A stretch of 64,000 nt of DNA from Mesotoga infera (lineage in GTDB: Bacteria > Thermotogota > Thermotogae > Petrotogales > Kosmotogaceae). The notes under the pieces are model-generated. The model was given only the letters and a program-made list of their open reading frames with translations, was not told where the DNA came from and did no database searches. Position 1 is the first letter of the stretch. Each line of letters opens with the position of its first letter. A program made the translations under genes and the position numbers. This document shows positions 8,644 to 59,051 of the stretch, in pieces. The stretch is taken from positions 1,178,001 through 1,242,000 of the forward strand of contig NZ_LS974202.1 of NCBI RefSeq assembly GCF_900157305.1. Direction: 5' to 3'.

Positions 8644-8644
8644 A

Positions 8645-11600
8645 TCAGTCCTCCAGCTCTATTTCTATCTCTGTGTTATCGTTCAGCGTCAGTTTCTCAA
8701 GCTCTCTCTTCAGTTGCAGATATGTGAGTCTTCTCTTGAGCTTTAATCTCTCACGTCTGACCGGCGGAGGCGTGGTAACGGGTCTCTCTTCCATAAACTT
8801 CTCATAAGAGGCCTTCAACCCTTCAAGTTTGCCCTTGAGGCTCGCTATCTCCAGAACGGCCTCACGGAAGCCTATATGGCAGTGCTCGCACTTTGAGGAG
8901 AAGCGTATCTCGAGTTCGTTGCAGGGAGAATTCGGCGCTTTGAACCAGCTCTGGTCCGCCGCCCTCTTACCCAGCTGGTTTCGCTCTTCACGTATGGAGT
9001 CGAGGTACTCTTCTATCTCGCTCAGCAGTCGGTCTCTTTCGTTATGGACGGGGTTGAAGTAGCCTTTGTAGGTGTTTCTTAGCTTCTCGAAGATACCGTC
9101 CAGATCGGTGCCAAATGAGGCGATGCTCGGGAGAGTGTCTCTATACTCCTTCACCAGCGCAGATAACTCTTCAGACTGCCCGTCGTCGAACTCTCTCTTG
9201 GCTATCTCGCCATCTATGTCTTTCAAAAAGCCCCTCTGCTTCTTTATCTTCTCGTAGTTTTTCTTAAGGAAGTCTTCGGTCTTGTCTGCGATTTCCTTCA
9301 GCTCCCTTAAGATAGTCCTCTCCTCCAGTAGTTTGTCAAGACAGTCGTGGCCGCCCCCGACAAGCAGGTTTATAAGTCCCTTCGTCTTGTCCAGCTCCCA
9401 GTTAACGGCCGCACCGAGCTCTTCCATCTTTCCCTTGAGTTCTTCAAGGGTTCTGTACAGACGTTTAAGGCCATCGAGGGCGTGAGTTATGAACTCGCTC
9501 CTTGGTGACTGGAGCGAGAGTTTCCCGTCGTCCAGCAGAGGGTTTATAAGCTGTATTAGTCTGTTCCTGTCTTCTGTCGAGAGCACAACGCTCTTGCGTA
9601 TCTTTGCATTTTTGAACTCGCCGACACTCTTAAATGCCTTGTGCACTTCGGGCTTGCCGTACGAGTCTATGTTGTTCAGCGTTATCTTGCCCCCGCGCAT
9701 AAGGCAGGCCACAGAGTACATAACCGTCTCCTGAGTCCAGCCGTATGGAGGAGATGTGAACTCCTCCAGCAAGTCCGCGCCCGTCCTGTCTTCTTTCAAT
9801 GACCGTATAACGGGCGAGATTATCTTGTGGGTCTCTATTAGCTCGCCATTCTCGTCGAAGACACGGTGGTCATCGTCAACCCGCACTGTCTTCAACGTGT
9901 TCTGCGGTCTGGTCAGCACGTCCTCTATGTCTTTGGACTTCGCAGTAGTGGCGGTAATGTCAGTATAGTAAGCAGGGATAACCCTGTCTTTTATGAACTC
10001 CTTGAGTTTGTAAAGTATGTTGCCACCGGAGATTAACTCACCCACATAGACGAGCTTTCCCTTCTCGAAGCTGTGGCGGATCTCTCCGGTCAGCTCTCTC
10101 TTCTTGTTTTCCATAGTCTCCGAATACTTTGCGAGTATCTCTCTGGTGTCACCGCCTGTCTTGTATGTGCGGAACGAGTCTAAAGAGACCTCCAGCCTCT
10201 TTATCTCGCGGGCCAGCGTGTCTATTTTGTCGTTTTCCTCGGGTATTAGATAGACCGTATCGGCGTGGTTCACAGACTCGAACTCTATACCCTCCACATT
10301 CGCCCCGGTGAATGAAGCGACACTGACTTTTAGGCCCTTTTTCTTGCTACTGATCGAATTACCTTCAAAGAGCCACTCTACGGGTACGCTTGGGCCGTCT
10401 CCGTACTGGATCTCTCTGTAATCCCTGTGGTTGGATATTGCCTGAAGCTGCCTGACTATCTCTTCGTTTCTTTTGGGTATGTCTATGATGGTTTCATTCA
10501 TCTCTTTTATAAACTCTCTCTCGAGATCGGTCACCAGATCTATCTCGCCGTTATAGCGGGTCACGTATCTGTTATCAACTAGATAGTCAATAACGTCCCT
10601 GACTTCTTTGCCCAGATCGTACTCTTTGTCGTAGATGCTTTTCACGAGCAGCCGGGTTATGACCGTCTCGCTTGCCTTTATCTTCGTCAGGTTCTTCAGG
10701 ATATGGAGAGTCTTGAGTATGTCGGAAGCCTTTACGTTTCTGCCAAGGTAGTCGTCGGCGCTTCTTACAAGCGCCATTACTTCAGAGCCGAAGAAGCCCG
10801 GTCCGAGTGCGTCGAAGAGGTCGGTGGCGTTCACCATCCTGCCAAACTCTTCATCCTTCAGGTTCTTCAGTATGAAATCGACCAGAGAGATAAACTTGCG
10901 GGTCGTTGCCTGCTGGTAAGATTTCCCTCTGGCGTTCTGCACAAAGTCCGGTATGAGCTGGAAATGGTAGGGATGGAAGGGATAGTAGTTCATAAGGTCG
11001 TCTTTGGTTTCGGTCTTTTTGTAGCTTCCTTCCGTGTTGCTCAGTGTGGTTATGTTACCCTGATTGTCTCGCATCGTCTTCTCAAAAAGCGGCTCTGTCT
11101 CTATCTTTTTCTTCAGCAGCCTCTCACGGGCCACCTCGTCCACGTTCTCGGAAGTTAGGTCTAGCCTTACCTCGAAGCGGTCGGTCAGTTTTCCGAGTTT
11201 GTGCTTGTCGAAGTTGCTGTTGGCTATTAACTGGTCTAGCTTCTCCTGAGAGGTCACTATAAGCCTTACCGAGCCCTTACCTTTGGACGAGAAGGCTTCG
11301 GCCACCGCCTGTAAGGCGAGTATCCTGTCGTCGTTGTCTTTTATTGAGGTCACGTACTGGCCTATCTCGTCTATGATGAAGACCAGGCGTTTCCCTGTCT
11401 TCTCTGTATAGGCGACGCAGTGATCGGCAAACTCACCGGGCGTGAGATTTTTGTATTTGTCCACCGCCGATCTAAGGAAGTCTTTAGCCTCTTCCAAGCT
11501 GTACCCGAGCCGTTCTGCCATAACGCGCGATACGAGGCGGCGGAACTCGCCAGCATTGGTGGTTATTTTGCCGTAGTCGTCTCCTCCGGCCTTTATGAGC

Positions 11601-12139
11601 TCTCTTATCTTTTCCAGATGGCCGAACTCGTCCAGTTCATACTCCATAATCGCGACGCTCGGGACGCTAGAGTAACCGCCCGCCTGAAGGAGTTTTTTGA
11701 ACATCACCTGCTGTACGGTATCTTCGGTCATAGAGCCTTCGCCTATTATCTCGAACATTATCACCGTGGCAGGTATGCTGTTGAGAGCGCTTATACTTGC
11801 CTTGAGGAATTCGGGGTTTGCGCAGCTGGCTACCCTTTCGTTGAAGAGCTCGCGTGCCGTTATGCCCCTGGGCAGGGCGTGATTGGAGAGCAGGTAGCCC
11901 AGTATCTTGGCAAAATATGACTTTCCCGAGCCAAAGAAGCCCGAGATCCAGACGCCTATCTTTTCGGTGGATGGGAGCTTATAGTTCAGGAGAAAATTCT
12001 CGAGATGGCTCTCTATTTGGTGAGTCACTATGTACTGGGAGATTTCCTTCTGCTCGAGTTCAAGGTTCTGATCCCCCGCTTTTATGACCAGAGGGACTTC
12101 CTCAGCTATGTTTATCTTCAGAAGATCTTTTATTTTCAT
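8645..12139 (-). CDS. brxC: BrxC, large P-loop ATPase of BREX
   Basis: This 1164-residue protein carries a P-loop GFFGSGKSYFAK near residue 67 and an acidic Walker B strand RLVFIIDEIGQYV near residue 270, followed by a sensor segment LRLIVTSQEKLDQL. The C-terminal third is rich in heptad-like charged helices and contains a CEHCH cluster (residues near 1090) that could bind metal. BrxC (also called PglY-like) is a conserved BREX ATPase thought to drive assembly or DNA engagement. It lies second from the promoter side in a tight operon with brxB (24-base gap) and pglX (1-base gap). Confidence 0.94.
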   Translation of the reverse strand: MKIKDLLKINIAEEVPLVIKAGDQNLELEQKEISQYIVTHQIESHLENFLLNYKLPSTEKIGVWISGFFGSGKSYFAKILGYLLSNHALPRGITARELFNERVASCANPEFLKASISALNSIPATVIMFEIIGEGSMTEDTVQQVMFKKLLQAGGYSSVPSVAIMEYELDEFGHLEKIRELIKAGGDDYGKITTNAGEFRRLVSRVMAERLGYSLEEAKDFLRSAVDKYKNLTPGEFADHCVAYTEKTGKRLVFIIDEIGQYVTSIKDNDDRILALQAVAEAFSSKGKGSVRLIVTSQEKLDQLIANSNFDKHKLGKLTDRFEVRLDLTSENVDEVARERLLKKKIETEPLFEKTMRDNQGNITTLSNTEGSYKKTETKDDLMNYYPFHPYHFQLIPDFVQNARGKSYQQATTRKFISLVDFILKNLKDEEFGRMVNATDLFDALGPGFFGSEVMALVRSADDYLGRNVKASDILKTLHILKNLTKIKASETVITRLLVKSIYDKEYDLGKEVRDVIDYLVDNRYVTRYNGEIDLVTDLEREFIKEMNETIIDIPKRNEEIVRQLQAISNHRDYREIQYGDGPSVPVEWLFEGNSISSKKKGLKVSVASFTGANVEGIEFESVNHADTVYLIPEENDKIDTLAREIKRLEVSLDSFRTYKTGGDTREILAKYSETMENKKRELTGEIRHSFEKGKLVYVGELISGGNILYKLKEFIKDRVIPAYYTDITATTAKSKDIEDVLTRPQNTLKTVRVDDDHRVFDENGELIETHKIISPVIRSLKEDRTGADLLEEFTSPPYGWTQETVMYSVACLMRGGKITLNNIDSYGKPEVHKAFKSVGEFKNAKIRKSVVLSTEDRNRLIQLINPLLDDGKLSLQSPRSEFITHALDGLKRLYRTLEELKGKMEELGAAVNWELDKTKGLINLLVGGGHDCLDKLLEERTILRELKEIADKTEDFLKKNYEKIKKQRGFLKDIDGEIAKREFDDGQSEELSALVKEYRDTLPSIASFGTDLDGIFEKLRNTYKGYFNPVHNERDRLLSEIEEYLDSIREERNQLGKRAADQSWFKAPNSPCNELEIRFSSKCEHCHIGFREAVLEIASLKGKLEGLKASYEKFMEERPVTTPPPVRRERLKLKRRLTYLQLKRELEKLTLNDNTEIEIELED

Positions 12140-12163
12140 TACCCCGACCCCCTACTGTCTATT

Positions 12164-12697
12164 TCAGATCACTAAAGCCCTGTAAACCGATGTCGTGTGC
12201 CTTCCGTCTAGAAATGTGAGGATATGGTCCTTCCTCTTTCCCGGATAAATAAAGAGGGCGGGATTGGCGAGATTGCCGGTCACGCCCTCGATCAACGGGT
12301 TGAGACCAAAGAAACCGTTGAGTATCCCGAGTCTGTGTACGGCCGTTATAGGGTTCGCCTTTGAAGACTCGACGATACTCTCGATAAGACCGTTTAGCAG
12401 TAGCTTTGAGAAGTCGCCTATGCTAGACTTCCCTAGAAACGAGAAGTCGTCCTCCAGATTCTCCATACCATAACTCTTAGCAGTCTCTACGAGTTTAGCC
12501 CCGAAATTGAGCAGGTTTATCCTGCCCTCGAAACGCATCTTCAACTCACGTACCGCCGTCGCCTCTTCCTTCGGAGCTACTATGAGGACTATTACCCGGG
12601 AACCTTCCGTCTCGCTGACGAGTGAATCCGCCCTTGAGAGCTTGTCTGAGACCATATCCAGCTTCTCTGAGAGTGTGAGGTTATCGCGCAAGTGCAT
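12164..12697 (-). CDS. brxB: BrxB, DUF1788 protein of BREX
   Basis: This is a small 177-residue protein with the DUF1788 pattern: an N-terminal helix-rich half, IVLIVAPKEEATAVRELKMRFEGRINLLNFG in the middle (quoted in part: RELKMRFEGRINLLN), and a C-terminal strand NPALFIYPGKRKDHILTFLDG (key part ALFIYPGK). BrxB occurs next to BrxA and BrxC in type 1 BREX and is required for activity in studied systems; its biochemical role is unknown. Its first 17 bases overlap the end of brxA, which points to coupled translation. Confidence 0.9.
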   Translation of the reverse strand: MHLRDNLTLSEKLDMVSDKLSRADSLVSETEGSRVIVLIVAPKEEATAVRELKMRFEGRINLLNFGAKLVETAKSYGMENLEDDFSFLGKSSIGDFSKLLLNGLIESIVESSKANPITAVHRLGILNGFFGLNPLIEGVTGNLANPALFIYPGKRKDHILTFLDGRHTTSVYRALVI

Positions 12698-13436
12698 CGA
12701 GCAACACCTCGAAGTCTATCTTCGGCTCAAGCCTTACAACGTCTCCTGCCATAGCGAACTCTATGATCCCGGAAGCGTTCAGCCCCGCAAGGTAAGAGAG
12801 GAGATCCCTCTCGTCCAGAAGCAAGTATTTGAAATCGTCTGCCTTCAAAATGGCGGAAGGTGAAAGTTTTGAGTTGAAGAGGAAGTACAGGACCGCGGTA
12901 ACGCTCTCTCGTTTAGGGCGGAAAAAATGCAAATCTATATTCTTGCCGTTAGATTCGGCCATACCGAGCTTTGATGTTATTGAGAGGTAGTTTGTTATCC
13001 TCTTGTCAGACATATACTTTGTGAAGCCCGCCTTCTTGACGATAAACTCGACTACGTCTTCACGTAGCAGGAAGGGCTCTCCCCTGTGGTAGGCAGGATA
13101 TATATGCTCGAGTGTGAGCGCCCTGGCGAGCGAGTCCCTTTCGCAGTTCTTCCAGAAGAGCAACTCACGTTTTATCTGCGTCTCTATTACGTCGGAAGTC
13201 ATTATGCGCGCAAAGACGTCCAGCGCTGAAGGAGTGAAGCCCCTGACGTAGTCGCCGATTAGCCAGTTGGCTATATTGCCTCTGTACTCTCTCGACTTGT
13301 TGAAGGGATCGTCTTCCACCAGGTGTTTTCTGATCTCTTCGGCATTTCTTCCCTTTATTACTTCGCCCATTATGTAGATGACATTGTCCAGGTGATCGAA
13401 CGCTTTATCCAGATGTGTTCTTGAGTTCGGTTGCAT
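12681..13436 (-). CDS. brxA: BrxA, DUF1819 protein of BREX
   Basis: This 251-residue protein is the first gene of the BREX operon. The sequence shows the DUF1819 pattern with WLIGDYVRGFTPSALD near residue 60 and a helical centre with LFWKNCERDSLARALTLEH. BrxA of other bacteria is a small DNA-binding protein built of winged-helix-like units. The start ATG at 13436 has GGAGG 9 bases upstream and a promoter-like pair just before it, so transcription of the operon probably begins here. No WYL-type BrxR regulator gene is present upstream; the neighbouring DNA is repeat sequence. Confidence 0.9.
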   Translation of the reverse strand: MQPNSRTHLDKAFDHLDNVIYIMGEVIKGRNAEEIRKHLVEDDPFNKSREYRGNIANWLIGDYVRGFTPSALDVFARIMTSDVIETQIKRELLFWKNCERDSLARALTLEHIYPAYHRGEPFLLREDVVEFIVKKAGFTKYMSDKRITNYLSITSKLGMAESNGKNIDLHFFRPKRESVTAVLYFLFNSKLSPSAILKADDFKYLLLDERDLLSYLAGLNASGIIEFAMAGDVVRLEPKIDFEVLLDALAR

Positions 13437-14206: not shown

Positions 14207-16141
14207 GTGCGCCCGGCATGGTACACAACTATAGGGTGAAAGACCCGAATGTGGGGAGTCAAAGAAGCATTAGCCAGAGGCAAGGGTGTCACTGGTAACG
14301 GTGAATCTGAAGGAAGCCCGAGGCAAAGTCCGGAACTGAACGAAAGTGAACCAGAGATGGCCGTTACAGAGGGTAACCCTGCGAGATAAGGGAAAGCCCT
14401 GACTCCAGCTGTAAAGGTTCGGATGGCAGGATTCGGATGAAAGTGGTGTATCTTACCCGGGGAAGTCCTCATGAGTCCGAAAGGGGTAACCGTTAGCAAG
14501 GAGGAGATCCAAGTTAAGGGAAAGCTCAGGAGGATGGCAGATGAACCCGTAGTAGTGAAGAACCTCTCCGAAAGGAGAAGGGACCTTGGCTATAAGCCAA
14601 GGGGGTGATGAGGAGGTCGAAAGGCTCCATCACTTGCGAAGGGGAGAAGGATCGAAGAAATGTGATCGGAAGACAGTGAAGAGACTTAGGTCAGACAGTT
14701 AAAGACAAGGTACATATTCCCGGGAGGGTAGAGAAGCCAGTCATTAATTGTCGCAACAATATCTGAGGCTGGAGCTGTTGGAAGGGAGCATGCAGGAGAA
14801 AGAGATGAAGTATTACAGTCTAATCGACAAAGTCTATTCGAAGAAGAACCTATTGAAAGCCTATCACAGGGTAAACTCCAACAGAGGAGCTCCTGGGATA
14901 GACGGAGTAACCGTAAAATCATTCGGGGAGAAACTCCTTGAAGAAATCGAGAGATTATCCGAAGAAATCAAGAGCGGTGAGTACATGCCCATGCCACTCA
15001 GGAGAGTAGAAATCCCAAAAGCAGATGGTAAAACAAGGCAATTGGGAATACCTGCTGTGAGAGACAGGGTGGTACAACAATCTCTCAAGGAGATACTGGA
15101 ACCTATATTCGAGGAAAGATTCCATCCCTCCAGTTACGGTTACAGAAAGGGAAGAAATGCCTGGCAGGCGGTGGAGAAGGCGAAAGCTTTTGCATCCAAA
15201 TACGGTCTGTGCAATGTAGTGGAACTTGACCTGAGCAAATGTTTCGACACTCTGGATCATGAGAAGATAATAGACTCCGTAGCAGAGAGAGTGAGTGATG
15301 GAAAGATACTCAAACTCATACGCGCAATGCTGAAGAGCGGAGTAATGGAAGATGGAGTCTGGAAGGCAACAGAAACTGGCAGTCCACAGGGTAGTGTAAT
15401 AAGTCCCCTGCTGGCGAACATCTACCTGGACGAGTTCGACCAGAAGATGAAAGCCAGAGGAATAAGGATAGTCAGATATGCAGACGACATATTAATCTTC
15501 TCGAAAACCCAGGAAGAAGCCCGAGAGTTTCTGGCAATCGCGATCAACATACTGGAGATTGACATGAAGCTCAAGGTCAACAGAAACAAGACGAGAATCA
15601 CAACACTGGAGGAGGGCTTTCACTTTCTTGGCTTCGAAATAAAAGGCGAGAGAGTTGGGATAGAGAAATCCAGATTGAAAAGGTTCAAGGGAAAGGTCAA
15701 GGGACTTACAAGAAGGAACCAGAGCACACCGGTAAAGGAAATAGTGAAAGAGCTAAATCCACTGTTGAGAGGATTTGCCAGCTATTTCAGGATAGTAGAC
15801 TTACAATCTACCTTGAGAGGGCTTTTGAGCTGGATAAGGAGAAGGCTTAGAGCCATCATACTACACCAGTGGAAGAGCACAAAGAAACTGAACAGAGTCC
15901 TTAGAAGGGCTGGATGGGAAGAGAAAGTCAATTTGAGAATGAACAAATGGCGCTCTTCTCACACAAAAGCAGTCAATTACGCCATTCCCAACAGGTTCTT
16001 TGAAGAGATGAACTTATTCGATATGACATCGTACTATCATCCCCTGTCGAAGTATCCGATACTCGATCCATGAGCCGTGTACGAGGCCCGTACGCACGGT
16101 TCTGTGAGAGGACGAGGGGCTCCGCCCCTCTCCTACTCGAT
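14207..16141 (+). mobile_element. Group IIC intron, apparently intact
   Basis: The 5' end GTGCGCCCGGCATGG and the following words CTATAGGGTGAAAG, GCAAGGGTGTC, GAATCTGAAGGAAGC and TCTTACCCGGGGA match the domain I core of the Oceanobacillus-type group IIC intron. Domain V starts at 16072 (GAGCCGTGTACGAGGCCCG, then GTACGCACGGTTC), overlapping the stop codon of the encoded protein. Domain VI ends in CTCCTACTCGAT at 16141. The 1935-nt element carries a reverse transcriptase gene. It is inserted exactly three bases after the hairpin ATTCTGAG...CTCAGAAT, the mode of insertion known for group IIC introns. The 3' flank GTTCTTTCCTC resembles the sequence that follows uninterrupted copies of the hairpin. 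Confidence 0.92.
14748..16073 (+). CDS. ltrA: Group II intron reverse transcriptase/maturase
   Basis: This protein of 441 residues has RT motifs in order: NRGAPGIDGVTVKSF, RRVEIPKADGKTRQLGIP, VVELDLSKCFDTLDHEK, TGSPQGSVISPLLANIYLDEFD, the catalytic VRYADDILIF, and GFHFLGFEI. A GIIM maturase domain follows (FASYFRIVDLQ, LLSWIRRRLRAIILHQWK). There is no HNH endonuclease domain, which fits class C introns. The longest frame begins with TTG at 14748, but an ATG at 14805 has AGGAG six bases upstream and is the best-supported start; the ATG at 14790 is also possible. The gene is in domain IV of the intron and its stop overlaps domain V. It would splice and mobilise its own intron and perhaps the broken copy at 57415-60372. 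Confidence 0.93.
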   Translation: MSQQYLRLELLEGSMQEKEMKYYSLIDKVYSKKNLLKAYHRVNSNRGAPGIDGVTVKSFGEKLLEEIERLSEEIKSGEYMPMPLRRVEIPKADGKTRQLGIPAVRDRVVQQSLKEILEPIFEERFHPSSYGYRKGRNAWQAVEKAKAFASKYGLCNVVELDLSKCFDTLDHEKIIDSVAERVSDGKILKLIRAMLKSGVMEDGVWKATETGSPQGSVISPLLANIYLDEFDQKMKARGIRIVRYADDILIFSKTQEEAREFLAIAINILEIDMKLKVNRNKTRITTLEEGFHFLGFEIKGERVGIEKSRLKRFKGKVKGLTRRNQSTPVKEIVKELNPLLRGFASYFRIVDLQSTLRGLLSWIRRRLRAIILHQWKSTKKLNRVLRRAGWEEKVNLRMNKWRSSHTKAVNYAIPNRFFEEMNLFDMTSYYHPLSKYPILDP

Positions 16142-16385
16142 GTTCTTTCCTCTGTCTTGAACCAGGAACGAGGAACCTGGACTCGCAGCATCGGAACGAG
16201 AAACTGCACGAAGGACGGGTCCATGATCTGTGACGAACAACGAAGGACGTCTCCTCGAAGCTTACAGCGTCTCTTTTTGCTCGCGAAGCGGAACTAGCCA
16301 GGCATAGCCTGACTGGCTTGCGCCAGCAGATTGGCTTTAAAAACGCCTCCTGCCGAAGGCAGTCTCATGTCTTTCAATTCGCAGC
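16142..16385. repeat. Repeat sequence 3' of the intron
   Basis: The 248 bases before the next gene contain a segment (16143-16200) matching the 3' flank of the second intron copy, then the GGACGGGTCCATGATCTG repeat (16215-16232), the word GCGAAGCGGAACT also seen reversed in the 103-bp repeat, and an imperfect hairpin AGCCAGGC...CTGACTGGCT near 16300. I see no gene. Confidence 0.6.
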
Positions 16386-16390
16386 CGTAA

Positions 16391-18217
16391 TCAGATCTTA
16401 TTCTTGAAGATCAGTTTCGCAAGCGAGGCTCCGGTTGAGAAATCCGGAATTATCACATCTGCCCCGGCTTTCTCCAGTCTTTCAAATTTCTTTTTGTTCC
16501 AGCCAAATCCAGCCTTTTCGTTTGAGGCAACCCCTATGGTGAAGGCTCCGACTTCTCTGCCCACAGTAATTTCGACTGGTCCATCACCAATTACCACGAG
16601 TTCGTCAGGTCTTATTCTCTCCTCTTTCATGAGCCTTTCAATGACTTTCTTTTTCGAATACTCCTCGATGCTGTCTAGCGCTCCAAATACCCCGCCATTC
16701 ATGTAACTGTGTACCCCTAGGTACTGTGATTCCTTTATTACATCTTCCTCATCGGTTCCCGATGCAAGCAGAAGAGTGACTCCTCCTTTTCGCAGCGTCT
16801 TTAGAAACCCAAGCGCTCCACGAAGCAGGTATTTGCTCTCCGCGTTTTCATTGATGCGTTCCTCCACTATCTTTTTCAAGCAGCCGGTATAGATCCTCTT
16901 GTACTCCAGCGGAGTCAGAATCTCGTTTGGTGGAACCAAACCGTACTCAATAACGAGCTTACGGAGTCCTTCCATTTGCAGGATTGTTTGAAGACCTGTG
17001 GTCTCGGCAATAAATTCATCTACCTCGACCATGATTCTTGAAAGCGCCTCTTCTTCAATCTCCTTCTCTCCTGTGATAAAACGTATCATGAGATCTCTCA
17101 TAATTGGCTGCCAGCCCTCTCTGAGTAGAGAGATCGTGCCATCAAAATCAAAAAGTACTCGCTTAACATTGCCAGGAAGCCTGCAGCTGTTTCTGAAGAT
17201 TGACGGATTGTCGATTTCGCAATATTCGGGTTCGCTCATCTCGGAAAGCGCCTGCCTTGAAAGCTTTCCCGTCCCCTTATGAGAGACGCAAAGTGCTGCG
17301 GCTTTTGTGGCCAATCTAGCCGAATCCAATAGAGGCTTTTCTCCGGAGCAGTGATCTACCGCGAGTGCTGCAATGTAAGCATCTCCCGCTCCGCAGACGT
17401 CTTTCACTTCTCCTTCAAGACTGAAAACCCGGTTCAACACACCACACTCGAAACAGAACGATCCGTCCTCGCCGGCGGTAACCACAACTGGAGATCTCAC
17501 TTTCCGAGAGAAATCCGTCAAATACTGCTGAACCAGTATTTTGTGGGGAATTTCGCTTTCATCGTTGCCTATGATACCCATTCTCTTCAAACCAGATATG
17601 AATTCATTCATATTTGGCTTCACCAGAAAACCGGCGAAGGCCTCGGGCTTAGTCCTGGAATCCGCAACGAAGGTCTTGTCTCGAAATCTTGTGCTCATAT
17701 CGAGAAGCCGGCATACTATCTCGCCGTCTATACAGCCCCTCCCTGGAATTTCTGCCTGGTCTTCGACTACGACGGCATCGACAGTCGGCACAAGAAGTTC
17801 GATTGCTCTTATCATCTCGGCCCTGCTGGTCTCGTTCAGACCAATCGGCGGAATGTCCAACCTTGGAAGATCCTCCTCTCCCGTGTTTGTGTTTATGAAC
17901 TTAGTATAGACGGGCGTTACATGGGACTGCGATTTTATTAGGAACTGAGTGCAGATGCCATACTTACTGAGTTCTCTTTCGAGATCGTACTGCCTTCCGT
18001 CGCACCCTACAGGGCCTAGCACGATTACCTCTACATCTAGCATCGCAAGATTCTTCGCCACGTTTCCGGCTGCCCCGGGAGAATACTCCTCTTTGATTCC
18101 GGTTATCGTCATTAGCCCCGTCTCCAGGCTTGGTTTGGACAGAGCTGGGTCGTAATAGACGTATCTGTCTAGAAATAAGTCTCCGATCACAAGGATTTTT
18201 GGTTTCTTTTGATCCAT
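16391..18217 (-). CDS. PfkB-family sugar kinase fused to HAD phosphatase
   Basis: This 608-residue fusion has an N-terminal PfkB kinase (residues 1-330) closest in pattern to the HldE/RfaE heptose-7-phosphate kinase domain: VIGDLFLDRYVYYDP, YSPGAAGNVAKNLAML, and the ATP/catalytic loop CGAGDAYIAAL at 275. A HAD hydrolase (350-608) follows with DFDGTISL at 357, LLASGTDEE in the middle and VVIGDGPVEI near 555; a long helical cap sits between motifs I and II, so it resembles phosphoglycolate-type phosphatases, not GmhB. The kinase would phosphorylate a sugar phosphate and the HAD part could remove a phosphate. It is the last gene of the mannoside operon, 5 bases after the upstream stop. The true substrate is unknown. 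Confidence 0.85.
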   Translation of the reverse strand: MDQKKPKILVIGDLFLDRYVYYDPALSKPSLETGLMTITGIKEEYSPGAAGNVAKNLAMLDVEVIVLGPVGCDGRQYDLERELSKYGICTQFLIKSQSHVTPVYTKFINTNTGEEDLPRLDIPPIGLNETSRAEMIRAIELLVPTVDAVVVEDQAEIPGRGCIDGEIVCRLLDMSTRFRDKTFVADSRTKPEAFAGFLVKPNMNEFISGLKRMGIIGNDESEIPHKILVQQYLTDFSRKVRSPVVVTAGEDGSFCFECGVLNRVFSLEGEVKDVCGAGDAYIAALAVDHCSGEKPLLDSARLATKAAALCVSHKGTGKLSRQALSEMSEPEYCEIDNPSIFRNSCRLPGNVKRVLFDFDGTISLLREGWQPIMRDLMIRFITGEKEIEEEALSRIMVEVDEFIAETTGLQTILQMEGLRKLVIEYGLVPPNEILTPLEYKRIYTGCLKKIVEERINENAESKYLLRGALGFLKTLRKGGVTLLLASGTDEEDVIKESQYLGVHSYMNGGVFGALDSIEEYSKKKVIERLMKEERIRPDELVVIGDGPVEITVGREVGAFTIGVASNEKAGFGWNKKKFERLEKAGADVIIPDFSTGASLAKLIFKNKI

Positions 18218-18222
18218 TAAGC

Positions 18223-19227
18223 TTATGCCGACCTCCTCACAATCGACCTGTAAAATGCCGGCAGAGTCTCTCTGTGGTCGCCCTTTATGTAGTAACCAGC
18301 ACCACCAAATGCTTCTGGAATTCTTGTAACGATCGATTTTATATCCCTAAAGTAATACGATGGAGCATTCTTGTTGTTCTTGGAAGTTTGTTCGAGATCA
18401 GCCTCTCTTATATCGAAGCTGGCCGTCGTAATTCCCTTTGGAGGCTTTCCAACATTTGCGGCCATCGAAATCGCCTTAAGTATCACTTCAACCCCTATCA
18501 CGGCCGAACCGACAACTATTACTACTCCGCCGTTAACCAGTTTTGAAATCTCGTTGGCAAATATAAGAAAATCTCTTCCGGAGCAACCCCCAAGAGCCTC
18601 TCCATCAAAATAAGGGCTCATATGATAGATATCTGTTCCCACGGCGCAGTGAACACAGAGCGGAATATTCTTCTTGTATGCGCTATACTGAATCGATACC
18701 TCGGGATACATGAATTTCACCTTTTCGGGAAAGGGTTCGCCAGATATCAATCTGCCCATTGCCTCTCCATAACCAATACGAAGCCTGTTTCCATGGACAA
18801 GTGCCTGGTTTATGAATCTGTTCGTCTCTTCTGCAAAACCGAAAAGCCCTTCTGACAAGGCGTTTGGAATGCTCTCGGAGGTCTTTCCGCTGTAGGCCAG
18901 TTCGAAATCGTGTATTGTAAAGGCCCCGTTGACGCCAAGGGCAGAGATGATTCCCTTTTTTATGAGCGATGAAAGAAGCGGCCCCATCCCATTCTTGATT
19001 ATATGGGCCCCGCTGAACATTATCACCGGTTTATCCTGACTCTTAGCTTCCACAACCTTCGAAGCCAGCTCTTCCAAGTCTCCTGACAAGTTGCTATCGA
19101 CTTCATCGATCACTTTATTTTCATCGATCAAGTCTGAGATATTGACCTCGCTTGGTCTATCCTTAAGCGGATAGGTTCTTACACTTGAACTGTCAAATAC
19201 CTCGAACTTTCCTTCGTATCTCATCAT
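18223..19227 (-). CDS. Deoxyhypusine-synthase-like protein of unknown function
   Basis: This 334-residue protein has the Rossmann-like pattern of bacterial deoxyhypusine-synthase-like proteins: MFSGAHIIKNGMGPLLSSLI, then GVNGAFTIHDFELAYSGKTSE, CVHCAVGTDIYHMSPYFDG and VVIVVGSAVIGVEVILKA. The lysine-bearing active-site motif of true deoxyhypusine synthase is not visible, and bacteria lack eIF5A, so a different substrate is expected. NAD binding is likely from the fold. It lies between the PfkB-HAD gene (5-base gap) and a GmhA-like isomerase (27-base gap), which suggests a sugar-phosphate role, but that is inference from context. Confidence 0.7.
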   Translation of the reverse strand: MMRYEGKFEVFDSSSVRTYPLKDRPSEVNISDLIDENKVIDEVDSNLSGDLEELASKVVEAKSQDKPVIMFSGAHIIKNGMGPLLSSLIKKGIISALGVNGAFTIHDFELAYSGKTSESIPNALSEGLFGFAEETNRFINQALVHGNRLRIGYGEAMGRLISGEPFPEKVKFMYPEVSIQYSAYKKNIPLCVHCAVGTDIYHMSPYFDGEALGGCSGRDFLIFANEISKLVNGGVVIVVGSAVIGVEVILKAISMAANVGKPPKGITTASFDIREADLEQTSKNNKNAPSYYFRDIKSIVTRIPEAFGGAGYYIKGDHRETLPAFYRSIVRRSA

Positions 19228-19254
19228 TCCACCTACCGTTTCATATCTGCCAAT

Positions 19255-19836
19255 TCAACTTTTTTCAGCTACCATCGCTTCTATTAGCTGGCACAGCACG
19301 TGTCCCAGTGTTATGTGCGTCTCCTGTATTCTCGGTACATCCGTTGAATCAACCTTGAACAAATAGTCACAGCGATCGATCATGTCTCCGCCAGTCCTGC
19401 CAGTCATGCCTATTCTCAAAGATAGCCTTTTCCTTGCCACTTCGAGAGCTCTCAAGATATTGTTCGAGTTTCCGCTTGTGCTTATTGCTATCACAACATC
19501 CTCTTCTCTCAAAAAGGCTTCCAGCTGTCTCGAAAAGATCTGATCATATCCGAAATCATTCGGGATCTCGGTAAGAATCGAGTCGTTGCTGGGCAATGAT
19601 ACCGCCCTTATCGGTCTTCTCTCAATATAGAATCTTCCCACAAGTTCCGCTGCCAGATGAGCGGCATCTGCAGCGCTTCCTCCATTTCCCATGAAATAGA
19701 CCGTACCACCGTTGCCGATTCTACGCGTAACCTCACGGGCAACCTCTAAAAGAGCATTTTCATAACGTTCAATGAAATCTCTTTTCACCCGTATGCTCTC
19801 TTCAAAGGCCTTTCGGGCCACGTCTTCAAGCTCCAT
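19255..19836 (-). CDS. GmhA-like SIS phosphosugar isomerase
   Basis: This 193-residue single SIS domain has the sedoheptulose-7-phosphate isomerase (GmhA) pattern: YFMGNGGSAADAAHLAAELVG near residue 48, VVIAISTSGNSNNILRAL near 115, and the C-terminal RIQETHITLGHVLCQLIE that supplies the catalytic His of the family. Family members convert sedoheptulose 7-phosphate to D-glycero-D-manno-heptose 7-phosphate. Finding it with an HldE-like kinase would fit a heptose route, yet the operon also carries a mannosidase and a sugar importer, so a catabolic ketose/aldose phosphate isomerase is an alternative. It starts 3 bases after the ROK kinase gene. Confidence 0.85.
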   Translation of the reverse strand: MELEDVARKAFEESIRVKRDFIERYENALLEVAREVTRRIGNGGTVYFMGNGGSAADAAHLAAELVGRFYIERRPIRAVSLPSNDSILTEIPNDFGYDQIFSRQLEAFLREEDVVIAISTSGNSNNILRALEVARKRLSLRIGMTGRTGGDMIDRCDYLFKVDSTDVPRIQETHITLGHVLCQLIEAMVAEKS

Positions 19837-19839
19837 CTC

Positions 19840-20775
19840 CTATCCTCTCCTTCCTCTTCGGCTGGCCACAATCAAAGCCGCATAATCACCTATCTTGTCT
19901 TTGAGCGCCGATAGGACAACTCTTTCTCTCGCCTTCTCGCCGATCAAAGACTCGTTGACCGCCTCTTTCATAGCGGACTCCAGCCATATTCCCTGAAGAC
20001 GCCACGCAAGATTTCCAAGTATTATCCTGTCAGGATCTAAAATGTCCAGCAGTACGGCCAGTCCTTTGCCGAAGTAAGTTCCGCTTTCTTCAAGTACTGT
20101 GACGGCGTAAGGATCTCCCTTTAGGGCCATGCCTGCGATTTTCTCAGTGCTCGTTCCACGTATGAATCTCTCCGGGAATCTATAACTGGCGTACAGCGAA
20201 ATCCCGGTCCCACTGCAATATGACTCCCAGGAACCATTCTTGCCGAAGAGCGAAGGTCCGTCTTCGGCCACTCTCATGTGGCCGACCTCTCCGGCTAATC
20301 CCTTCGACCCGTTGTACAGTTTGCCATCTATGATTATTCCTGCTCCAAGACCGGTTCCCAGCGTCAGAAAGATAATGTTTGAGAAACCCTTGCCCGCTCC
20401 AAGAATACTCTCTGCCAGAGCCCCCGCTCTTCCATCATGCTGAACGGTTACTGAAAAATGAAAGCGCTCCTCAAGCGGTTGAACTATGTTGACCGTCCCC
20501 CACCTGAGATGAGGAGGATTGAAAAGAGTCCCCGTATTTGAATCCATTGGACCTCCAACAGATACTCCAGCTCTTGCCGGAACTTCCCTCTTCACTAGAA
20601 GATCGATTTCTAGGGATAGTCTCTCTAAAAAGCTTTCAAAGCCTCTGTCGGGTTCGGTAGGAAACTCTCTTCTCCTGATGATATTCAGATCTTCATCGCC
20701 CAAAACAACTGCGGTCTTTGTGCCTCCAATATCTATTCCCAGTATCCTGCCTTTTACTTCATTCATCTTCATCAC
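19840..20775 (-). CDS. ROK-family sugar kinase
   Basis: This 311-residue protein has the ROK fold: ILGIDIGGTKTAVVLGDED at the N-terminus (phosphate loop), VQHDGRAGALAES with the catalytic Asp, and LTLGTGLGAGIIIDG. The segment GEVGHMRVAEDG is present, but the usual CxCGxxGCxE zinc motif is replaced by FGKNGSWESYCSG, with only one Cys left. ROK kinases phosphorylate glucose, mannose, fructose, GlcNAc or ManNAc; the mannosidase next door makes mannose or an N-glycan sugar plausible. The ATG is 18 bases after the alpha-mannosidase stop, with a second in-frame ATG two codons later. Confidence 0.85.
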   Translation of the reverse strand: MMKMNEVKGRILGIDIGGTKTAVVLGDEDLNIIRRREFPTEPDRGFESFLERLSLEIDLLVKREVPARAGVSVGGPMDSNTGTLFNPPHLRWGTVNIVQPLEERFHFSVTVQHDGRAGALAESILGAGKGFSNIIFLTLGTGLGAGIIIDGKLYNGSKGLAGEVGHMRVAEDGPSLFGKNGSWESYCSGTGISLYASYRFPERFIRGTSTEKIAGMALKGDPYAVTVLEESGTYFGKGLAVLLDILDPDRIILGNLAWRLQGIWLESAMKEAVNESLIGEKARERVVLSALKDKIGDYAALIVASRRGRRG

Positions 20776-20793
20776 TTTCCATAGCTTCTATCT

Positions 20794-23700
20794 TCACTCA
20801 AAAATCAGAGTATGTATTCCGAACTGCCGGTACTCGAGTTGAACTCTACCATCTACAACAGGAAGTTCGCAGACTCTGTCTTCGAGAATGTTGGAAATCC
20901 AGCAGCGACTAAAGGGCAGGGAAGTTCTGACACTGGCGACTCCACATCTGCCTTCAACTTCGGCCAGTCTGAGCACATAACCGGTACTCTCGGAATGCTT
21001 CAGGGCGAGAACTTTTAGATTCCTGGCAGATATCTGAAGGCAATCTTCACTCAAATTGAGACTGCCTGATGCCAGAACTAGAGGCTTATTTAGACTTTCT
21101 GCTTCTGTAACTGCCTTAAGAGCGTCTGTGGAGTCATGGGAAAACAAGGAATAGGTGAAACCGTGCCTTCCCTCATCGGCGAAGAAATCGGGATAGATCG
21201 GCGATCTGAGAAGCGTCAATGAGACGTCTGAATTGCGGCAGGCATGACCGTACTTTCCGTCATTCAATATGGAGACGGCGAAGCCCGGTTCCGAAACCTC
21301 CACCCATCGATGCGCCGGAAATTCGAATCGCGCATCTTCGAATGAATTTCTGACCCTGGTGCTTCTGAGCGAATAACCGGCCGAAAGGTCACACTTGATT
21401 TCCCGGGTGAGAAGATTGATGGGAAAATTGGCCTTCAGCAAAGTCCTTCTTGTATGCCATTCGATTTCAGTTTCAATATCCAGTCTCTTTGAAAGAGCGT
21501 TCAGAACGTATCTCTGTATTATCGTGCTTCCCTCGTAATGATAGGTTGCTTGAACAACCTTTCTTACAGGACCGCTTTCTATCGTTCTCACTTCAGAAGC
21601 ATCGAGCTTTCTTTTCGATCTGGCATAGTCATGATCGATATCCCAACCGTCCCAAGCAACGGGAATGTCTTTATATACATAGAGAGAGTTTCCCGGTCCC
21701 GAAAGAAGCGGCCTGTCAAGAGTCTTGTCGTAGGCAGATATGCTTCCGTCTGCATTTACTTCAACGATCAAGTAAGCGTTCTCCATCACGGTATCGTCGT
21801 CGGGCGCATGCCGATCGACTTTCTCGTCTATGTATTCGAATACTTGAGCGGAGAAAGGAGAGATCATCCCGCCCAAACTGTATACGGATTTCCCGTCATA
21901 TGTTCTTTGGGAAGCGAGCTTCTTGCCGTCGGACCTTCGCAAACATCTTTCGTCTTCATCGGAAAAGATTACTTCTCGAGAAAAGGAGCTTGCATTGATA
22001 ACGGTCTTGAATCTAGGATTCCCGTCGCTCCTAGAACTCACGAAGCCTTCAGAGATCTTATTCGTTTCCTCAATTACACCGCTGAGTTCACTTTCAGCCT
22101 GATGATGAACTTCGTTTATCGACGAGCCGGGAAGGATGTCGTGGAATTCGTTGTGAAGAAGCATCTCCCACAGCCTTCTAACTCTCTCGATCGGATATTC
22201 TTCTCTTTCGACAAGTAGCGCTCCAAATACCTCAAGTCTGTACAGCGCGTCTTCGGCCTCTTTGTGAAGCTTCTTAGTTCTTGCCTGAGTCGTGAAAGTG
22301 CCTCTGTGCAGTTCAAAGTAGAGTTCGTCATCCCAGAGGGGTAGCTCGACATCCTTCGGTAGATTCTCGTAGTACTTCTGCAGCGGGGCCATTTCAAGAC
22401 TGGGCATACCAGGATAGTTCTTCAGCCGTTCATAGTACTCAAGCATTTCGTCGGTCGGACCCCCGCCGCCGTCACCGTATCCAAAAGTTGTGACGGTCTT
22501 GTTGTGAACCTGTTTGTTCTGGAAGTTATCCCATGTTCCAAGAATCGCTTCGGGGTTGATCATTCCGTTGTAGCCACCTTGAGGGTTATCGAAGAAATGA
22601 CAGACAATCTCGCTTCCGTCCAGACCTCTCCATCGGAATAGGTCAAGGGGAAAGCGGTTCTTCTCATTCCATTTCAGTTTAGTCGTGGAGAAGTACTTTA
22701 TTCCCGCCTCTTTCATGATCTGGGGAAGAATCCAGGAGAAACCGAAGACATCGGGCAGCCACGCCACCGAAGACCTGACGCCAAACTCCTCTTCAAAGAA
22801 CCTCTGGCCGTACAAGAACTGTCTCGCGAGGGATTCCGCGCTGGCAATGTTGCAATCGCTTTCTACCCACATTCCGCCTATCGCTTCCCAGCTTCCCCGC
22901 ACAATACTATCCCTGACTCTCTCGTAGAGGTCTGGATCGTTCTCTTTAAGATCCTTGTACATCTGTGCCGAAGACTGGATATACACGAACTTGGGATATT
23001 TCTCCATAAGTCTCAGAGCATTGGCAAAGGTTCTTCTGATCTTTCTTTTCGTTTCGTTGATTGGCCAGAGCCACGCATAGTCAATATGCGCCTGCCCGGT
23101 AACCTGAACAGAGCCTGTGGATCCGTGCTCCTCTGTAAGCTTCACTATTGAATCTTTCAGATTGTCGCACGCCCTCAATACCGTAACCCTGTAATCTTCA
23201 GGCAATTCGTTACCGCTCGACTTCTCGAAACTTGGGGAGCGCCAGAGATAATTGACGCTTCCGTATTGCTGCTGACCAAAAAGGGTGGGATTGTCGGGAG
23301 CGGTCTTGAAATACTCATCCGTCGATCTCGGCAGTTCAATTGCCGAGAGGCAAGCGCTGATGATTTTAAACAGTTTCTCGGCAAGCACGTCATCCTTTGT
23401 CGCTTCAAAGACATCTATTGCCACCATGAAATCGAGATAGGTCCCCGAAACCAGCTCATCTTCAAGGAGCAGTTCCGCAGCTTCAAAGACGGGGCCGGAT
23501 AGATGGGTTCCGAAGAGTCCTTTCGGGACGGTCTGAATATCCAGAATATGGCGCTTTCCGTCCGCAAATTTCGTGACATCCAGGAGTTGGTGATAGACGT
23601 TTATCTCGCCATAAGAATGACCATCTACCATCACAAGACTCTCGCCTCCCGGGACGACTCTCAGAAAGAGCCTTTCGCCGTCTTTGAGCTTTTCTCTCTC

Positions 23701-23910
23701 AAAACTCGATCTGAACCAGACAGGAAAGCTTTCTTCATCCCAGCAATAACCGGCCGATATCTCCTTCCATCCTTCTTCAGGCGGAGTCTCCGAGCGCGAT
23801 CCGCTGAACAGCCAGCCGTCGATCCTTTCTCTCTCTCTCACAGTATAGGGAAAGAGCTCAGACAGTTCCTTCTTGAGCCTTACGCATGACTCGGATCTAG
23901 AACGATACAC
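20794..23910 (-). CDS. GH38 alpha-mannosidase
   Basis: This 1038-residue protein has the complete GH38 layout. An N-terminal all-beta or linker region is followed by the catalytic barrel at about 260-600: GQAHIDYAWLWPINETKRK (metal ligands H and D), IGGMWVESDCN, and the nucleophile-bearing WLPDVFGFSWILPQI. The three-helix bundle contains LLHNEFHDILPGSS. C-terminal beta domains complete it. It has no signal peptide, so it acts in the cytoplasm on imported mannosides. The start is GTG at 23910 with GGAGGAG five bases before it. Substrate linkage cannot be deduced from sequence. It is central to the operon 16391-29413. Confidence 0.94.
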   Translation of the reverse strand: MYRSRSESCVRLKKELSELFPYTVRERERIDGWLFSGSRSETPPEEGWKEISAGYCWDEESFPVWFRSSFEREKLKDGERLFLRVVPGGESLVMVDGHSYGEINVYHQLLDVTKFADGKRHILDIQTVPKGLFGTHLSGPVFEAAELLLEDELVSGTYLDFMVAIDVFEATKDDVLAEKLFKIISACLSAIELPRSTDEYFKTAPDNPTLFGQQQYGSVNYLWRSPSFEKSSGNELPEDYRVTVLRACDNLKDSIVKLTEEHGSTGSVQVTGQAHIDYAWLWPINETKRKIRRTFANALRLMEKYPKFVYIQSSAQMYKDLKENDPDLYERVRDSIVRGSWEAIGGMWVESDCNIASAESLARQFLYGQRFFEEEFGVRSSVAWLPDVFGFSWILPQIMKEAGIKYFSTTKLKWNEKNRFPLDLFRWRGLDGSEIVCHFFDNPQGGYNGMINPEAILGTWDNFQNKQVHNKTVTTFGYGDGGGGPTDEMLEYYERLKNYPGMPSLEMAPLQKYYENLPKDVELPLWDDELYFELHRGTFTTQARTKKLHKEAEDALYRLEVFGALLVEREEYPIERVRRLWEMLLHNEFHDILPGSSINEVHHQAESELSGVIEETNKISEGFVSSRSDGNPRFKTVINASSFSREVIFSDEDERCLRRSDGKKLASQRTYDGKSVYSLGGMISPFSAQVFEYIDEKVDRHAPDDDTVMENAYLIVEVNADGSISAYDKTLDRPLLSGPGNSLYVYKDIPVAWDGWDIDHDYARSKRKLDASEVRTIESGPVRKVVQATYHYEGSTIIQRYVLNALSKRLDIETEIEWHTRRTLLKANFPINLLTREIKCDLSAGYSLRSTRVRNSFEDARFEFPAHRWVEVSEPGFAVSILNDGKYGHACRNSDVSLTLLRSPIYPDFFADEGRHGFTYSLFSHDSTDALKAVTEAESLNKPLVLASGSLNLSEDCLQISARNLKVLALKHSESTGYVLRLAEVEGRCGVASVRTSLPFSRCWISNILEDRVCELPVVDGRVQLEYRQFGIHTLIFE

Positions 23911-23968
23911 AGTATCTCCTCCAATATCCTGGAAAGTCCTTTCTCATGAGCAGTCTGACAAGAACCAC

Positions 23969-25123
23969 TCAGAGAGCTGATCTAATTGCGCTCTCAAGAT
24001 CCTCGGAAAGGACTTCAATTTCCTCCAATCCTGCGTGAATCCGTATTAGAGAGACATTCTCACCGGGATCTCTGTGAGAAACCGCATAAGGAGAGACGAG
24101 GCTCTCATAACCGCCCCAGCTTACTGCCCTCCTGAAGAACTTGAGAGAGTTCACAAACCTCTTGATCCTGTCGATGTCTCTTGTTTTGAGCTTGAACGAA
24201 AAGAGGCCGGAACCTCCCCTCATCTGCTTTTTCGCAAGAGAGTACTGATCAGAAGATTCGAGCATCGGATACAGGACATATTCAACGGCTTCGTTTTCCT
24301 GCAATCTTCTGCTGAGCTCCATCGCATTCTGGAAATGAACCGGCATGCGGATGTGAAGAGTCCTGATTCCCCTTAGTATCAACCAGGCGGCAAAGGGATC
24401 GGGCACGGCCCCGGTATTTAGAAACTCCTTTTCGAAGATTCTCTTGATATCTTCATTCGAACCGGCAACGACACCGCCGACTACATCGCTGTTTCCGCCA
24501 AGGTATTTTGAAGCCGAATGCACCACTAGATCAACTCCGAAATCAATCGGATTCTGATAAATCGGAGTTGCCCATGTATTATCGATTATCGTCTTGATTC
24601 CCTTTGATCTTCCCAGCGAGGCCACTTCGGTCAGATCTTGAAGTTTGAAAGTGAATGTCGTTGGGCTTTCGAGATATATGATCTTTGTGTTTGGCCTTAG
24701 CGCCGCTTCAAGTTCATTCGCATCGCTTCCTTCCACAAATGTGTGTTCTACACCGAATCTCGCCATATACTTCGCTACATACGTGGATGTCCAGCTGTAG
24801 CAGTCCTTGATCGTCACTATGTGATCACCGCTCTGCACGAAGGCCGAAATACTGGAGACTATCGCAGCAACGCCAGATGCGAAAAGCTTTGCTCTCTCTG
24901 CATGCTCGAGCGCAGCCAATTTCTGTTCAAGAATGTTTACGGTCGGATTGTTTCCCCGAGTGTACAGAAAGTGGTTCGTCTCATCTGAAATGGCCGTTGA
25001 AAAATCATCAAAGTCCTTGAACGAGAAAATCGAAGTCTGGAACAACGGAGGATTGACCGCTCCAGAAGGTAAATCCTCTTCTCCAAGATAGTGCAAGATC
25101 TCTGTTATGTGCTTTCTCTGCAT
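23969..25123 (-). CDS. Cystathionine gamma-lyase/synthase-family PLP enzyme
   Basis: This 384-residue fold-type I PLP protein belongs to the Cys/Met metabolism family. The PLP lysine is in DLVVHSASKYLGGNSDVVGG, the substrate side includes FLYTRGNNPTVNILEQKLAALE, and TIIDNTWATPIYQNP carries the Asp that contacts the pyridine ring. The C-terminal end has ISLIRIHAG-like residues (VSLIRIHAGLEEIEVL). Members cleave or form C-S bonds in cystathionine, methionine or homocysteine. Its place inside a glycan operon, 58 bases from the mannosidase gene and 21 from a permease, is unusual. Whether it has any role in sugar use is unknown. Confidence 0.9.
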   Translation of the reverse strand: MQRKHITEILHYLGEEDLPSGAVNPPLFQTSIFSFKDFDDFSTAISDETNHFLYTRGNNPTVNILEQKLAALEHAERAKLFASGVAAIVSSISAFVQSGDHIVTIKDCYSWTSTYVAKYMARFGVEHTFVEGSDANELEAALRPNTKIIYLESPTTFTFKLQDLTEVASLGRSKGIKTIIDNTWATPIYQNPIDFGVDLVVHSASKYLGGNSDVVGGVVAGSNEDIKRIFEKEFLNTGAVPDPFAAWLILRGIRTLHIRMPVHFQNAMELSRRLQENEAVEYVLYPMLESSDQYSLAKKQMRGGSGLFSFKLKTRDIDRIKRFVNSLKFFRRAVSWGGYESLVSPYAVSHRDPGENVSLIRIHAGLEEIEVLSEDLESAIRSAL

Positions 25124-25144
25124 CCTAAAAATCCTCCAGTCCTT

Positions 25145-25984
25145 TTATCCTTTTATTGCGCCTTCGGTAAGTCCGGCAATTATATATCTTTGGGCAAAGG
25201 CAAACACTATCATCGTCGGCAAGAGAGAAATAACGAGTCCCGCGCTCAAGACATCCCAGCTTATACCTGCCTTTGAGATGAAGGAGTTCAGCGCAACTGG
25301 AACCGTCATCTTTTCATCCGAGAAGATGAACATCGAAGCCAGAAACAGCTCGTTCCAGATGTTCACGAAGGCAAAACTGAAAATCGCCGCCAGTCCCGGC
25401 TTGGTAAGGGGAAATACGACTCTGAACATTGCCTGCAGAGTATTGCAGCCGTCAATCACCGCGGCCTCCTCCAGCGAAACGGGGATCCTGTCAAAGAAGC
25501 TCTTTGACATGATAGTGCTGAAAGCAATTACCATGGTCACATAGAGGATGAACAGCGTAGAAAGTTTATCGGTCATCCCGTAATTTGCGAGCATTACAAA
25601 CAGCGGAGCCATAAGTATGAACGACGGCACCATCTGCGTGAAATACATGGCAAGCAAAGTCCCGTTCCTGAATTTTTTCGCCTGAATTCGAGAGAGCGCA
25701 TAGCCGCTGAACATGGATATTAGCATGGCTACGAAGGCCGCAACAAGCGCCACTATTGCGCTGTTTCGAAAGTAGACCCCGAAGTTTGCGAAACCAAAGA
25801 GCTTGGCGTAACTCTCAAACGACAACTTCGCAGGAAGATACTTCAGCGGAAAGGTGTAGATCTCTCTGGAACCCTTGAAGGATGTCACCGCTACCCAATA
25901 GAGGGGCAAGAGCGCAGCCAAAAGATACAGCCCGAGAGCGAAGATCTTCAATATCTTGCCTACAACTTTCATGAGCGCCTTCAT
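25145..25984 (-). CDS. ABC sugar transporter permease (MalG type)
   Basis: This 279-residue membrane protein has six predicted hydrophobic segments and the EAA loop EEAAVIDGCNTLQAMFRVVFPLTKPG that contacts the ATPase. The N-terminal LLPLYWVAVTSFKGSREIY and C-terminal QRYIIAGLTEGAIKG are typical of MalG-like (CUT1) permeases. It overlaps the upstream permease gene by 4 bases. No ATPase gene is in the operon; a shared MsmX/MalK-type ATPase elsewhere on the chromosome would be needed, as is common for CUT1 importers. Confidence 0.93.
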   Translation of the reverse strand: MKALMKVVGKILKIFALGLYLLAALLPLYWVAVTSFKGSREIYTFPLKYLPAKLSFESYAKLFGFANFGVYFRNSAIVALVAAFVAMLISMFSGYALSRIQAKKFRNGTLLAMYFTQMVPSFILMAPLFVMLANYGMTDKLSTLFILYVTMVIAFSTIMSKSFFDRIPVSLEEAAVIDGCNTLQAMFRVVFPLTKPGLAAIFSFAFVNIWNELFLASMFIFSDEKMTVPVALNSFISKAGISWDVLSAGLVISLLPTMIVFAFAQRYIIAGLTEGAIKG

Positions 25985-26874: not shown

Positions 26875-26908
26875 CTCTCAGTAGACCGCTCTGAATACTT
26901 CAGAGAAA

Positions 26909-26950
26909 CGGCACGGCGTCTAAATCATCGAATCTTTTTCCGCCGTGCCG
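26909..26950 (-). promoter_or_regulatory. Intercistronic hairpin between binding-protein and permease genes
   Basis: Perfect 10-base inverted repeats, CGGCACGGCG at 26909-26918 and CGCCGTGCCG at 26941-26950, flank a 22-base loop in the 106-base gap. On the transcript (minus strand) no long U-tract follows. Hairpins at this position in other importers stabilise the binding-protein mRNA and reduce read-through into the permeases; that role here is inference. Confidence 0.65.
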
Positions 26951-26980
26951 AATCGTTAGTCAATCTCTTTCAGTTCTTAA

Positions 26981-28231: not shown

Positions 28232-28261
28232 TTGCATGCCTCCTTTTGTAGTTTTGTGGTG

Positions 28262-59050: not shown

Positions 59051-59051
59051 A

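Follow-up and report, generated by a model that had tools for sequence, protein, structure and literature searches.

What reaction sequence could be carried out by proteins resembling enzymes of heptose synthesis that are encoded at the end of an operon for an alpha-mannosidase and a sugar importer? This question is raised by a 64,000-nucleotide stretch of the Mesotoga infera genome (NZ_LS974202.1, positions 1,178,001 to 1,242,000), hereafter called the window, in which genes for a GmhA-like sugar-phosphate isomerase, a GSU2086-family protein and a fusion of an HldE-type PfkB kinase with a HAD phosphatase directly follow each other. Comparison with other genomes demonstrates that these three genes form a real conserved cassette, and the cassette probably represents an uncharacterised sugar-phosphate pathway.

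Our survey of the class comprised 103 genomes and reached Thermotogota-type records. The GSU2086 gene was present in 14 genomes and the fusion gene in 13 of these, while all 89 genomes without a GSU2086 gene lacked the fusion as well; in the sole genome with GSU2086 and without the fusion, the locus runs to the contig edge. The Fisher p value for this co-occurrence is 1.3e-15, which is overstated because kinship was not corrected for. Direct neighbours of the GSU2086 gene in the 14 class loci were the GmhA-like gene (13/14), the fusion gene (12/14) and the ROK kinase gene (10/14), and only in one genome (G047) were cassette genes split over separate short contigs. The ROK kinase gene adjoined the GmhA-like gene in 10 of the 14 class loci and additionally in two loci without GSU2086. 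An earlier interpretation of the window (the sequence-only reading) had joined the ROK kinase and the other three genes into a four-gene set; rare co-occurrence of the four in other genomes would have spoken against its interpretation. Co-occurrence was found instead, for the GmhA-like, GSU2086 and fusion genes, whereas the ROK kinase belongs to the set less regularly. The presence of fusion and GSU2086 is patchy across families, from which we infer that the cassette moves horizontally.

Similar neighbours were found in unrelated bacteria and in a phage; searches of plasmid, phage and viral collections yielded only three further loci. On a Chloroflexota plasmid, HAD, GSU2086, PfkB and SIS are four separate adjoining genes in a sugar-import operon that also contains Gfo/Idh/MocA and DeoC genes. 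A Solidesulfovibrio plasmid carries a nucleotidyltransferase-PfkB fusion, GSU2086 and SIS alongside nonulosonate genes. On a viral contig of 73.8 kb (IMGVR_UViG_3300010883_000017; L054, 2482-11369), GSU2086 lies one gene away from an HldE-type PfkB-nucleotidyltransferase, with genes for an NTP_transferase and an NAD-dependent epimerase upstream and no SIS match on the contig; judged by its gene set, it looks as if this phage makes a nucleotide-activated heptose-like sugar. In Geobacter sulfurreducens, hldE (GSU2085), GSU2086 and gmhA (GSU2087) are consecutive genes, and all three are among the genes that affect growth on electrodes (PMC5585712). These four neighbourhoods identify the HldE-type kinase as the constant partner of GSU2086, usually together with a GmhA-type isomerase. 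They also bear on the objection that the enzymes have unrelated substrates and owe their proximity solely to inheritance of the operon as a block. The class loci may stem from few transfers, in which case the co-occurrence counts overstate independence, and one locus on a short contig (L019 of G047) contains GSU2086 without its partners. Nevertheless, we regard block inheritance as very improbable, since equal partners occur in four distant settings that differ in gene order, fusion and orientation, and since presence and absence of GSU2086 and fusion go together.

In the window, the cassette closes a densely packed operon of ten genes on the minus strand (16391-29413), which begins with a ROK regulator and ends with the fusion. 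From the GH38 gene through the ROK kinase, GmhA-like and GSU2086 genes to the fusion gene, the intergenic spacing is only 18, 3, 27 and 5 bases. The sequence-only reading had rightly placed the last four genes beside a GH38 mannosidase and an importer, but had omitted the pyridoxal phosphate (PLP)-dependent enzyme and the ROK repressor of the same operon. The features are, in window coordinates and with the basis of their assignment:

16344-16361, minus strand: terminator-like hairpin right after the fusion gene, the last of the operon (bare consensus match; the scan found fewer sites than in shuffled sequences)
16391-18217, minus strand: fusion of an HldE-type PfkB kinase (residues 1-330) and a HAD phosphatase (residues 350-608) (Pfam/NCBIfam, AlphaFold2, Foldseek)
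18223-19227, minus strand: GSU2086-family protein with a deoxyhypusine-synthase/ornithine-cyclodeaminase fold (NF052581, AlphaFold2, VIA-align)
19255-19836, minus strand: GmhA-like zinc sugar-phosphate isomerase (SIS_2, gmhA model, conserved residues, tree)
19840-20775, minus strand: ROK-family sugar kinase, proposed hexose (mannose) kinase (PF00480)
20794-23910, minus strand: GH38 alpha-mannosidase (GH38N, middle and C domains)
23969-25123, minus strand: Cys/Met-metabolism PLP enzyme with an L-alanine/L-glutamate racemase-type score (NF041088)
25145-25984, minus strand: ABC sugar permease (sequence; orthologue of relatives at the equivalent place)
25981-26874, minus strand: ABC sugar permease (sequence; orthologue of relatives at the equivalent place)
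26981-28237, minus strand: sugar-binding protein of the importer (SBP_bac_1)
28262-29413, minus strand: ROK-family transcriptional regulator, a repressor (helix-turn-helix and ROK domains)

Promoter and terminator scans delivered consensus matches only. The ROK kinase scored 178 bits with PF00480, and its top subfamily was ROK glucokinase, below the cut-off. The PLP enzyme reached 672 bits with the model for bifunctional L-alanine/L-glutamate racemases (NF041088; cut-off 629); a racemase-type enzyme thus sits in a mannoside operon, and it is retained in a related operon of another family (L045).

The isomerase is a SIS_2 protein whose top NCBIfam models are those for GmhA (167-169 bits, under cut-offs of 209 and 276). 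It fails the TIGR00441 equivalog cut-off (167 vs 209.45 bits), which the GmhA proteins from Hdd clusters of the phylum exceed with 213-229 bits, and it matches 2XBL with an E value of 1.2e-43. H60, E64, Q171 and H179 are all conserved and correspond to H61, E65, Q172 and H180 of E. coli GmhA, its zinc-site ligands. In the phylogenetic tree, the cassette proteins form one clade (support 100/99) apart from other Thermotogota GmhAs, which are encoded beside HddA and HddC in surface-sugar clusters. NagS-type SIS dehydratases (PMC12680351) were rejected as relatives, because NagS groups with MurQ and not with GmhA.

For the PfkB half of the fusion protein, the top model was rfaE domain I (TIGR02198) with 135 bits, under the equivalog cut-off of 345; the best non-HldE model reached 53 bits. 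The AlphaFold2 model of the fusion had a predicted local distance difference test score (pLDDT) of 89.4, and its seven top Foldseek matches in the PDB were all HldA of Burkholderia cenocepacia. According to the alignment, D13, D17, R119 and D121 occur in E. coli HldE as well as in most proteins of the HldE type, and E. coli RbsK (ribokinase), PfkB, FruK and FrlD lack them as a set; the catalytic D279 is also retained. The HAD half is of the HAD_2/Hydrolase type with the phosphatase motifs DFDGT, S/T, K and GDG, in which D357 and D359 (the DxD nucleophile motif), K522 and D545 are invariant. The earlier description as an HldE-like kinase fused to a phosphatase was confirmed. GmhB was not among the matches of the HAD half, and we refrain from naming a specific phosphatase, as matches to HADs of the beta-phosphoglucomutase or phosphoserine-phosphatase type were weak only. 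A tree of the PfkB halves was discarded, since branches were long and placement outside the Thermotogota group was unreliable. In one genus, genes for a small PfkB kinase and for the S component of an energy-coupling factor (ECF) transporter lie beside the cassette or a related operon (L045, 5933-7197; L046, 1709-2970; L028, 13621-14903). The small PfkB gene by the related operon of G057 was considered as a substitute for the fusion and dismissed because it is not HldE-like.

The search covered the whole genome, which consists of one contig of 2.97 Mb. Neither in the fusion gene nor in the whole genome did the HldE nucleotidyltransferase domain (TIGR02199) give a match, while control genomes did match, and GmhB (TIGR00213) was equally without a match in the genome; the sequence-only reading was therefore right that no nucleotidyltransferase is present and that the HAD part is not of the GmhB type. 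The best genomic scores for the epimerase HldD (TIGR02197; 120.7 bits, cut-off 274.6) and the guanylyltransferase HddC (94 bits, cut-off 300) stayed below the cut-offs. Synthesis of ADP-heptose is ruled out, since the HldE nucleotidyltransferase and GmhB are missing and there is no clear HldD. GDP-heptose synthesis was rejected owing to the lack of an HddC over the cut-off and to the difference between the cassette GmhA clade and the Hdd-cluster GmhAs.

The third cassette protein matched NCBIfam NF052581, the GSU2086 family, with 319 bits (curated cut-off 250). It had been described as deoxyhypusine-synthase-like, which holds for the fold but not for the sequence. Its AlphaFold2 model, built from 13 sequences (pLDDT 78.8, predicted template modelling score 0.82), aligned to the archaeal deoxyhypusine synthase 8put with a VIA-align Z score of 19.9 over 271 residues (root-mean-square deviation 4.1) and to the ornithine cyclodeaminase part of AgrE/ArgZ with a Z score of about 19.4, at identities of 11-19%. 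A sequence profile detected both enzymes weakly, via one stretch ending in NGAxxIHDxE. The Pfam model for deoxyhypusine synthase, DS (PF01916), had no match anywhere in the genome, for which reason this function was rejected; weak DS matches below the cut-off occurred in L030, L031 and L054. Bacteria are not known to contain eIF5A. In deoxyhypusine synthase and AgrE, NAD carries a hydride only transiently, without net redox change, and structure 6lrg shows AgrE together with NAD. As the model matches these NAD enzymes, the GSU2086 protein may, by analogy, perform an NAD-dependent, redox-neutral step. It is a bolder and rather doubtful generalization that GSU2086 proteins constitute a new class of sugar-phosphate enzymes with a deoxyhypusine synthase fold and redox-neutral use of NAD, for example as sugar-phosphate epimerases, that is common to Geobacter-type heptose synthesis, phages and Thermotogota sugar catabolism and operates there with a previously undescribed isomerase/kinase-phosphatase route.

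The best indication of the sugar comes from the mannosidase. Relatives carry divergent GH38 types at the equivalent place, and three types (that of the window, that of L028 and that of L045 and L046) each lie directly upstream of a ROK-GmhA gene pair. Since their mutual identity is only 27-32%, GH38 probably joined this pair more than once, and the repeated linkage points to mannose, in the form of mannose 6-phosphate, as the sugar of the cassette. In one genus, the loci of G057 and G061 contain genes for GH38, ROK kinase and the GmhA-like protein without GSU2086 or the fusion alongside; this set would be a complete route from mannoside to fructose 6-phosphate, provided that mannose 6-phosphate is a substrate of the GmhA-like enzyme.

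We propose that heptose-type enzymes were recruited into a mobile cassette that acts on a manno-configured sugar phosphate, and we assign a probability of about 0.4 to this explanation as a whole, for which we infer substrates, reaction directions and the GSU2086 reaction. The importer would take up an alpha-mannoside, GH38 would cleave it and the ROK kinase would phosphorylate mannose at C-6. The GmhA-like zinc isomerase would interconvert mannose 6-phosphate and fructose 6-phosphate, which is the aldose-ketose reaction between manno-heptose 7-phosphate and sedoheptulose 7-phosphate on sugars with one carbon less. At O-1 of the manno-configured sugar phosphate, the HldE-type kinase may then add a phosphate, and the distal phosphate may be stripped by the fused HAD domain, so that the net effect would be a phosphate shift from a 6- or 7-phosphate to a 1-phosphate. 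The GSU2086 protein might carry out its redox-neutral step, such as an epimerisation, on one of the intermediates.

Several observations weigh against the mannose-based explanation. Among the class loci, only two genera have the mannosidase, and outside these two most cassette loci have no GH38 gene nearby. Elsewhere, the genome has a match to type I phosphomannose isomerase, so the use of mannose need not depend on the GmhA-like protein. Transketolase is present, so sedoheptulose 7-phosphate can be made, and heptose is also suggested by the Geobacter triad, whose genes carry heptose annotations and belong to an operon for sugar biosynthesis. A pure heptose route with a merely co-regulated mannosidase would further explain why both isomerase and kinase descend from enzymes of heptose synthesis and keep their signature residues, and why GSU2086 lies between hldE and gmhA in Geobacter and near a kinase-nucleotidyltransferase in the phage. 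We consider it the somewhat less likely solution, because the genome has neither an HldE nucleotidyltransferase nor GmhB, and no HddC or HldD over its cut-off, because the real heptose GmhAs of the phylum group separately, with HddA and HddC, and because the tight ROK-GmhA-GH38 linkage would be left unexplained.

Alternatively, the cassette might degrade an imported heptose or unusual manno-sugar, which ROK would phosphorylate and the GmhA-like enzyme would feed as a ketose phosphate into the pentose phosphate pathway, with kinase, phosphatase and GSU2086 protein handling a stereoisomer. Unrelated importer types and GH1 or aldolase genes beside the cassettes of relatives suggest varied glycosides with one common sugar, and the Chloroflexota copy with its Gfo/Idh/MocA and DeoC genes fits a catabolic role. 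However, GH38 enzymes are alpha-mannosidases, there is no evidence for heptosides as their substrates, and a kinase-phosphatase fusion would be superfluous in such a route, which makes this alternative improbable.

The surroundings of the cassette contain further genes. In two genera, corrinoid methyltransferase genes (URO-D type, RACo) lie near it (L028, 939-5525; L024, 9958-14929), accompanied by a corrinoid-binding protein in L024 and CobW in L028; they may hint at a methylated substrate. In the window, BREX-type defence genes (PglX, BrxC and BrxA by PADLOC models; 4849-13436, minus strand) adjoin the operon. Two group II introns with equal Rfam scores are located at 14289-16141 (plus strand) and 57415-60290 (minus strand); the former encodes a reverse transcriptase (14748-16073), and its end lies some 250 bases past the last operon gene, on the opposite strand.

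The sequence-only reading had suggested an unreported route, and this is plausible: the parts are of known kinds, but the limited open-access literature searched describes neither their combination nor a fusion of kinase and phosphatase nor what GSU2086 proteins do. Repeated linkage to GH38 favours mannose as the substrate, whereas the HldE/GmhA signatures and the Geobacter context favour heptose; the cassette may stand for a new mannose route or for a step of heptose chemistry that has gone unrecognised. In both cases, a family known at NCBI only under the name 'GSU2086 family protein' has gained a tight genomic context, and a deoxyhypusine synthase fold is tied to sugar-phosphate enzymes, with predicted cofactor and partners.

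Among known systems, ADP-heptose synthesis by GmhA, HldE, GmhB and HldD shares with the cassette the isomerase and kinase families, the succession of isomerase, kinase and phosphatase, the GmhA zinc-site residues and the HldE kinase signature. It differs by its nucleotidyltransferase, GmhB and HldD, whereas the Mesotoga isomerase and kinase score under the NCBIfam cut-offs, the kinase is fused to another HAD type, and a GSU2086 protein and a ROK kinase are added. GDP-heptose synthesis by GmhA, HddA, GmhB and HddC, which is found in other Thermotogota, has only the GmhA family in common; the kinase here is of the PfkB and not the GHMP type, the GmhA-like clade is separate and HddC stays below its cut-off. 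The E. coli MngB mannosylglycerate hydrolase operon likewise uses a GH38 enzyme to free a mannose-type sugar, but the GH38 protein of the window reaches only 70 bits with NF007331 (cut-off 1138), an ABC importer and a ROK kinase take the place of the phosphotransferase system, and the cassette is additional. Deoxyhypusine synthase and AgrE/ArgZ share with the GSU2086 protein a short NG/NA..HDxE motif and the fold, at Z scores of about 19-20, in contrast to the low sequence identity, the genome without a DS match and the sugar-operon context. In Geobacter GSU2085-2086-2087, the family NF052581, named for the Geobacter gene, has two neighbours of the same kinds in equal order; there the kinase carries the annotation of a bifunctional HldE and belongs to an operon for sugar biosynthesis, whereas in Mesotoga it is a kinase-phosphatase in a mannoside operon.

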